Shown here: piece by piece, positions 36,688 to 37,128 of the stretch | Numbering within the stretch: the stretch's first letter is position 1 | How the letters are laid out: every line of letters begins with the position of its first letter | Assembly (NCBI RefSeq): GCF_002844555.1 | Contig: NZ_PJNI01000009.1 | Span: 1-64,000, forward strand | Length of the DNA stretch: 64,000 nt | Reading direction: 5' to 3' | Source: Brumimicrobium salinarum | GTDB taxonomy: Bacteria > Bacteroidota > Bacteroidia > Flavobacteriales_D > Crocinitomicaceae | The notes under the pieces: model-generated | The model's database searches: none | Told to the model about the DNA's origin: nothing | The model's input: only the letters and a program-made list of their open reading frames with translations | Program-made: the position numbers and the translations under genes

Positions 36688-36720
36688 CAAATTTAATTCT
36701 AAATTACAATCATTTTACAA
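36688..36720 (-). promoter_or_regulatory. upp promoter, leaderless architecture
   Basis: On the minus strand TTG (36720-36718), a 22-bp spacer and TAAATTTG (36695-36688) precede the ATG at 36682 by only 5 nt, so transcription should begin at or next to the start codon. Confidence 0.6.
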
Positions 36721-36770
36721 TTAATGAAATTAAAATGAAAAGATGTTGCTATGATAAACAGGAATAAAAT

Positions 36771-36814
36771 AAAAAAACCATGTAGCTTAAATCTGAAAGC
36801 CTCAGATCGACATG
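36771..36814 (-). terminator. Terminator-like hairpin of the RNA candidate
   Basis: On the minus strand CATGT…ACATG (outer) and ATCTGA…TCAGAT (inner, 5-nt loop) form an interrupted stem, followed by G and seven T. Confidence 0.55.
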
Positions 36815-36903
36815 TGTAGAACCTCCGACTTATTTCTGTAATCCTCTGGGTTATCCTTTTCGTAAAACGACGAAGGGAGGCTCGCCATAGACAAGTCAAG
36901 TAC
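36771..36903 (-). ncRNA. Structured small RNA candidate upstream of upp (family unassigned)
   Basis: A minus-strand unit of about 130 nt sits between its own promoter (next entry) and a terminator-like hairpin with a T-run (36771-36814). GAGCCTCC (36883-36876) can pair with GGAGGTTC (36826-36819), with an outer GACTTGT/ACATGTC stem and an inner hairpin around CGTTTTACG, giving one long irregular rod. GC content is clearly above the flanks. The shape is reminiscent of a 6S-type RNA, and a 6S-Flavo family is known, but I cannot assign it by eye. It lacks the conserved signatures of tmRNA, SRP RNA and RNase P. Readthrough could also make it a upp leader. Confidence 0.45.
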
Positions 36904-36908
36904 AGTTC

Positions 36909-36936
36909 TAAAGGTAAAATTTTAAGCTTCAAACAA
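36909..36936 (-). promoter_or_regulatory. Promoter of the RNA candidate (TTG-N17-TACCTTTA)
   Basis: TTG (36936-36934), 17-bp spacer, TACCTTTA (36916-36909): one mismatch to TAnnTTTG. A similar TACCTTAC lies farther upstream at 37000-36993. Confidence 0.45.
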
Positions 36937-36947
36937 CGCTACATGGC

Positions 36948-36993
36948 GGTCTTGCGACCTCAAACAAATCGAACACCTCTGTGTGATTGTTTG
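36948..36993 (-). other. Two further hairpins upstream of the RNA candidate
   Basis: On the minus strand, CAAACAA/TTGTTTG (36993-36987 with 36967-36961) encloses ACAC-AGAG-GTGT. It is followed by GGTC-GCAA-GACC (36959-36948), a stem capped by a GNRA-type GCAA loop. They may belong to a longer RNA that begins near 36990. Confidence 0.4.
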
Positions 36994-37071
36994 TAAGGTA
37001 AAAATAATACTTTTTTTTGACTCCCCGCTATAATTTTGCTAACAATTTTACGTGTTTAAACAATCATATCC

Positions 37072-37108
37072 AAAAAAAAAGGTGCCCATAATAAATATGG
37101 ACACCTTG
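37072..37108 (-). terminator. Intrinsic terminator of the DUF4836 gene
   Basis: On the minus strand a 12-bp stem (AAGGTGTCCATA / TATGGGCACCTT, one G-U pair) with loop TTTAT is followed by a run of T (37080-37072). It lies 21 bp after the stop. Confidence 0.9.
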
Positions 37109-37128
37109 AAAATAAATTAATCCGTTAA

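Follow-up and report, generated by a model that had tools for sequence, protein, structure and literature searches.

A very probable 6S RNA gene of Brumimicrobium salinarum preceded by a predicted two-hairpin leader

The gap upstream of upp in Brumimicrobium salinarum very probably contains the single-copy 6S RNA gene of this species, which would be read from the minus strand and have its own promoter and terminator. In other bacteria, 6S RNA ties up RNA polymerase when growth stops. The RNA is homologous to two RNA families of Bacteroidota, Bacteroidales-1 (RF01693) and 6S-Flavo (RF01685), and by sequence comparison it is nearer to Bacteroidales-1 than to 6S-Flavo. It has a rod-like fold with a closing stem, a central bubble and an apical stem, and this fold is supported by covariation. 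The finding would provide a Bacteroidota group, in which the B. salinarum copy lies under the Rfam cut-offs, with its 6S RNA.

Location and predicted features of the RNA

In the window (the whole 64,000-nt stretch of contig NZ_PJNI01000009.1 that was analyzed) a gap of 446 bp separates the start of upp (36682) from the stop (37129) of the neighboring gene, which we take to be DUF4836, a name taken over from the initial annotation. Both genes are located on the minus strand. The initial annotation had proposed that the gap holds a structured RNA and has a higher G+C content than the sequence on either side, and both points were confirmed. The minus strand folds better than shuffled sequences, with z −3.1 and 1 of 200 shuffles equally good for 36765–36960, and z −2.7 and 3 of 200 for 36765–37000. 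The G+C content is 0.409 at 36771–37000 vs. 0.186 at 36700–36769, 0.264 at 37000–37128 and 0.344 in the whole window. The stem, the GCAA-capped hairpin and the hairpin-plus-T7 terminator that had been described there are all present (closing stem at 36938–36946/36778–36786; 36948–36959; 36771–36777). As to the extent assigned to the RNA, 36771–37000, its lower end fits, while the upper end should reach about 37006.

The view that no protein explains the gap was upheld as well. The sole open reading frame of at least 60 aa inside the gap (36699–36932, 77 aa, TTG start) overlaps the RNA, and the core lengths of the relatives (176–183 nt) differ by non-multiples of three, which argues against a reading frame. 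No tRNA or tmRNA was found in the window. Several other candidates were rejected: an L10-leader match (26.8 bits, cut-off 44) covers the DUF4836 terminator, and the snoRNA and ctRNA matches are under the cut-off, with E above 4. It should be mentioned that this terminator, at 37072–37107 after the DUF4836 gene, is composed of a strong hairpin and nine consecutive T.

The features of the RNA and of its surroundings are listed below. H1 and H2 are the two hairpins of the leader, and R1 is a covariance model built from 12 cores, namely that of the B. salinarum locus and those of 11 relatives.

36999–37006, minus strand: predicted −7 box of the promoter, TATTTTTA (consensus in Bacteroidota, TAnnTTTG; conserved TAnnTTT(A/G), upstream of both 5′ hairpins)
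about 36992–36995, minus strand: predicted transcription start
36961–36993, minus strand: leader hairpin H1 (folding; two-sided changes in 9/9 pairs, 20 chosen leaders)
36948–36959, minus strand: leader hairpin H2, GGTC-GCAA-GACC (folding; two-hairpin leader in 87/95 family members)
36770–36947, minus strand: putative 6S RNA core of about 178 nt, from closing stem to terminator (RF01693, R1, covariation)
36938–36946, minus strand: closing stem, 5′ strand, CCATGTAGC (folding; helix 1, 6/10 pairs with two-sided changes)
36911–36922, minus strand: central bubble, 5′ side, presumed template of the product RNA (unpaired in the consensus)
36909–36936, minus strand: TTG-N17-TACCTTTA of the initial annotation (within the RNA, 5′ side of the central bubble)
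36859–36874, minus strand: apical hairpin with variable loop (helix 8, 3/3 pairs with two-sided changes)
36837–36844, minus strand: GGATTACA motif (identical in 12/12 aligned relatives; the consensus of Bacteroidales-1 has GGAUUACa)
36811–36818, minus strand: central bubble, 3′ side, TACACATG (consensus TAAnCnTG, resembles the −7 box)
36790–36808, minus strand: possible alternative hairpin of the 3′ bubble strand, GATCTGAG-GCT-TTCAGATT
36778–36786, minus strand: closing stem, 3′ strand, GCTACATGG (folding)
36771–36777, minus strand: T7 tract of the intrinsic terminator (sequence)
36688–36695, minus strand: separate predicted −7-like box TAAATTTG before upp (downstream of the terminator of the RNA)

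Relatives, Rfam families and fold of the core

The comparison with Rfam suggested in the initial annotation gave a divided answer. At gathering scores no family matched in the 64,000-nt window. When an E-value threshold was applied instead, RF01693 matched 36770–36948 over its full length (model 1–179/179, 30.6 bits, E 0.0023 with 481 bp scanned). The curated cut-offs are 60 bits for RF01693 and 85 bits for RF01685; at half of its cut-off, the RF01693 score misses the membership threshold, and we therefore file the RNA as a 6S RNA homologue that falls outside RF01693 as this family is currently defined. In the whole genome, the best RF01693 match is this very locus (E 0.0038), the next best being at chance level (E 1.84), and nothing credible was found for RF01685 (best match 22.9 bits, E 1.23, on another contig). 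The general 6S model was absent from the five Rfam matches obtained at the locus up to E 10. We take RF01693 to be a 6S RNA family, following the suggestion of Rfam (“6S-Bacteroidales RNA suggested”). A table of Weinberg et al. (2010; PMC2864571) includes both 6S-Flavo and Bacteroidales-1.

Relatives of the locus were revealed by DNA search in 13 of 59 genomes, own included, among them all nine other genomes of the genus that were sampled. The distribution given here rests on R1, which on its own locus, one of its 12 sequences, matched at 1–176/176 with 192.4 bits. In the family Crocinitomicaceae R1 matched 97 of 120 genomes (own included) belonging to 21 of the 24 genera, once each and at full length. 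Matches were also obtained in 26 of 39 genomes of the order and in at least 5 of 296 genomes of the phylum sample, own included in both cases, the phylum count being a lower bound from a limited first look. No R1 match was present in the remaining 23 of 120 family genomes; laxer filters applied to 20 of them yielded a match in one.

It should be mentioned that one genus (g22: G030, G070, G082, G093, G103, G110, G117, G124, G131) gave no R1 match, with laxer filters too. Its nine genomes are each listed as 99–100% complete, and the 6S RNA may have been lost or have strongly diverged in this genus.

The four other phylum matches of R1 are L055, L056, L057 and L058. Two of them, L055 and L056, are members of RF01693 (184.4 and 166.6 bits, cut-off 60), and L058 is a member of 6S-Flavo (97.7 bits, cut-off 85). 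For L057, no Rfam match was obtained at E 0.1. Thus, a model made from the kin of the B. salinarum RNA reaches both curated 6S families of Bacteroidota, and two separately curated families are linked through one model. When scanned against Rfam together with 15 other loci, the B. salinarum locus fell short of E 0.1; besides L055, L056 and L058, eight of these 16 loci gave RF01693 matches under the cut-off, and five, our locus and L057 included, gave nothing at E 0.1. Homology to an accepted 6S family is seen in the R1 matches and in the peak of RF01693 at this locus in the genome.

The covariation across relatives that the initial annotation had proposed to look for was observed. In the 12-row alignment of cores, 23 of 48 pairs have two-sided changes (0/500 shuffles). 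The covariation score of the core is 0.372 vs. 0.197 in shuffles and at most 0.127 for slid versions, over which the structure is favored, having been predicted on the same 12-row alignment that was used for counting. The predicted fold is a rod composed of the closing stem, the central bubble and the apical stem; a rod of about 200 nt with these three parts and a −10-like element are given as features of 6S RNA in PMC8876501.

The 3′ side of the bubble was read from alignment A5, whose 98 rows (95 from the family plus L055, L056 and L058; L120 was under the threshold and left out) were fitted to the model, and its composition is T(0.73)A(0.85)A(0.78)nC(0.80)nT(0.86)G(0.90). The −7 box of Bacteroidota is TAnnTTTG according to PMC9723704. 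The bubble sequence TAAnCnTG agrees with it at four of six fixed positions, in a model-fitted alignment and with the TA drawn as paired at the bubble edge.

Comparison with known 6S RNAs revealed that: (i) the B. salinarum RNA shares with Bacteroidales-1 a full-length alignment, the GGATTACA motif, the closing stem with its U tract and a similar length, but scores 30.6 bits vs. the 60-bit cut-off, and the 11 Bacteroidales-1 loci compared, by eye, are without the two-hairpin leader; (ii) it shares the general plan with 6S-Flavo, whose member L058 is recovered by R1, whereas the B. salinarum genome contains no credible RF01685 match and the 16 6S-Flavo loci compared are likewise without the two-hairpin leader by eye; (iii) it has the rod, closing stem, central bubble and apical stem in common with the 6S RNAs of Escherichia coli and Bacillus subtilis, and possibly the hairpin of the 3′ bubble strand (PMC8876501), while no general 6S model matches it up to E 10. 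In the same phylum, 6S RNA together with product RNAs has been detected by dRNA-seq in Bacteroides thetaiotaomicron, as stated in PMC7366714. Detection of 6S RNA in Flavobacterium psychrophilum is mentioned in PMC9723704.

A 6S-type RNA, the first suggestion of the initial annotation, is the best reading of the locus, its expression being presumed from the sequence. Among the literature matches listed, we recognized no description of a 6S RNA in Crocinitomicaceae or of a two-hairpin leader; either could be described by Wehner et al. (2014), whose subject is how widely 6S RNA occurs.

Predicted promoter and two-hairpin leader

The promoter originally placed at TTG-N17-TACCTTTA (36909–36936) fared less well. 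The sequence itself exists, but it lies inside the RNA and its form TTG-N17-TAnnTTTA is kept in only 2 of 12 relatives, own included; therefore, it is probably a part of the RNA and not a promoter. The real promoter box is likely the one predicted at 36999–37006. Of the 95 family members, 80 have a sequence TAnnTT[TC][GA] that starts 50–85 nt upstream of the core, vs. 11% of simple shuffles, and the distance from box to core is most often 59–63 nt. As judged by eye, the B. salinarum locus has no clear −33 TTTG, a weak one at best. The number of 95 was arrived at as follows: from the 97 family matches G125 was left out as lying near a contig end, and L113, whose upstream sequence is short, was left out of the leader counts.

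The predicted leader comprises about 50 nt between the −7-like box and the core and would fold into two adjacent hairpins. Two hairpins were found in 87 of 95 family members vs. 1295 of 19000 dinucleotide shuffles (6.8%), by criteria that were fixed after seeing the folds and were identical for the shuffles. Four of the eight members that failed (L033, L038, L089, L112) look two-hairpin by eye; what made them fail was the choice of box, the spacing or a fold that competes. An alignment of 92 leader sequences gave no usable consensus; folding was then performed for each sequence separately, and a subset of 20 leaders was chosen. In these 20 of 95 leaders, H1 has two-sided changes in 9 of 9 pairs, a count that 35 of 500 shuffles also reach, and 94.4% of its cells pair (shuffled mean 57.7). 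Its covariation score is 1.002 vs. at most 0.177 for slid versions, the H1 structure having been taken from two rows of this subset.

Could the 5′ hairpins be a separate element or a DNA feature outside the 6S transcript? The weak −33 box of the B. salinarum locus (by eye) and the 15 of 95 family members without a box of the searched form at 50–85 nt would agree with this. Nevertheless we consider it improbable: where the box is found it precedes the hairpins, most often at 59–63 nt from the core, in 92 of 95 members 0–4 nt separate the last pair of the leader from the core, and H1 covaries. The hairpins are accordingly treated below as the predicted leader of the 6S transcript.

Two minor features of the leader were noticed. 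In 74 of 95 members an AG is present in the loop of H1, frequently within CAGAG or CAAAG (counted with no shuffle control), and this loop may be a protein or nuclease site. In L100, L106, L114, L117, L125, L126 and L131–L135 the leader is longer and its first hairpin is of another sequence type; several of these loci can form a further hairpin close to where the 3′ strand of the closing stem lies.

In the order, outside the family, the leader was found in 5 of 16 loci (families f3, f7 and f11; shuffles 50/1600) and was absent in 11 (f2, f4, f5, f8 and f13). These 16 loci cover 16 of the 22 order matches outside the family, the other six having come without loci. A box of the searched form precedes two of the five leaders. 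Eleven RF01693 loci (order of G378; nine of them over the cut-off) have no two-hairpin leader by eye; a −7-like box of the same form is located 23–48 nt upstream in nine of them and none in two. Similarly, the 16 RF01685 loci inspected of 17 found, 14 of these 16 coming from one family, are without such a leader by eye. Thus, the leader, being absent by eye from these RF01693 and 6S-Flavo loci and from 11 of 16 loci of the order, is clade-restricted. If transcribed, it would represent a new architectural form of a global regulator of transcription, and the related families, some having it and some lacking it, would make a natural experiment.

A different element was noticed in family f17 (L136–L149), where 13 of 14 loci have GTTC(T/A)T no more than 80 nt upstream of the RF01685 match. 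By eye, it is located close before the RNA, often just past the apparent end of the upstream gene, and it could represent another type of promoter or else a signal for processing.

As for the role of the leader, we tentatively put first that it directs the maturation of the 5′ end or else shields this end, while being stacked on the closing stem; such a role is a guess. It is rather unlikely that in Crocinitomicaceae and some sister families the leader, with its strong covariation and recurrent loop, is a second domain of the 6S RNA that senses a partner (a protein, a ligand or a nuclease) and sets the amount of 6S RNA or its grip on the polymerase.

Proposed mode of action and genomic context

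The transcript is predicted to start at about 36994, with H1 and H2 preceding the core. By analogy with known 6S biology, the RNA would imitate an open promoter. The bubble, which has a −7-like TAnnnnTG in its 3′ strand, would be bound by RNA polymerase that contains the housekeeping sigma factor, and the enzyme would be held back in stationary phase. Release would then occur when the polymerase makes a short product RNA with the 5′ bubble strand as template; this product is predicted to begin at about AUUUUAAGCUUC, near AUUUUAAGC.

The 3′ bubble strand may then snap into a hairpin of its own, as in E. coli, for which PMC8876501 describes a 3′-bubble hairpin as a part of release. A 3′-bubble stem of at least eight pairs can be formed in 53 of 96 family members vs. 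439 of 9600 shuffles, the stem sequences being different. With a threshold of at least five pairs the numbers are 86 of 100 vs. 54% of shuffles, and this threshold says little. The hairpin competes with the consensus helix 17–26/155–167.

The weak RF01693 score and the extra two-hairpin leader might also be expected of an RNA that has the 6S shape but no longer the 6S function and serves as a regulatory RNA of another kind. This we regard as very improbable: the bubble, the GGATTACA motif and the closing stem are conserved, and the genome has no credible second RF01693 or RF01685 locus. The least credible reading of all, also offered in the initial annotation, is a cis-acting leader or riboswitch of upp that is read through into this gene: the RNA does lie upstream of upp on the same strand in the B. 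salinarum genome, but tblastn of the fetched loci (most with 1.5-kb flanks) revealed upp adjacent to the RNA in this genome only and elsewhere once, about 2.5 kb away (L065), while the closing stem of the RNA, followed by the T7 tract, forms a terminator at its end, and a separate −7-like box, TAAATTTG, precedes upp. On the upstream side, a DUF4836 protein is encoded within the fetched flank in seven of the nine other genomes of the genus.
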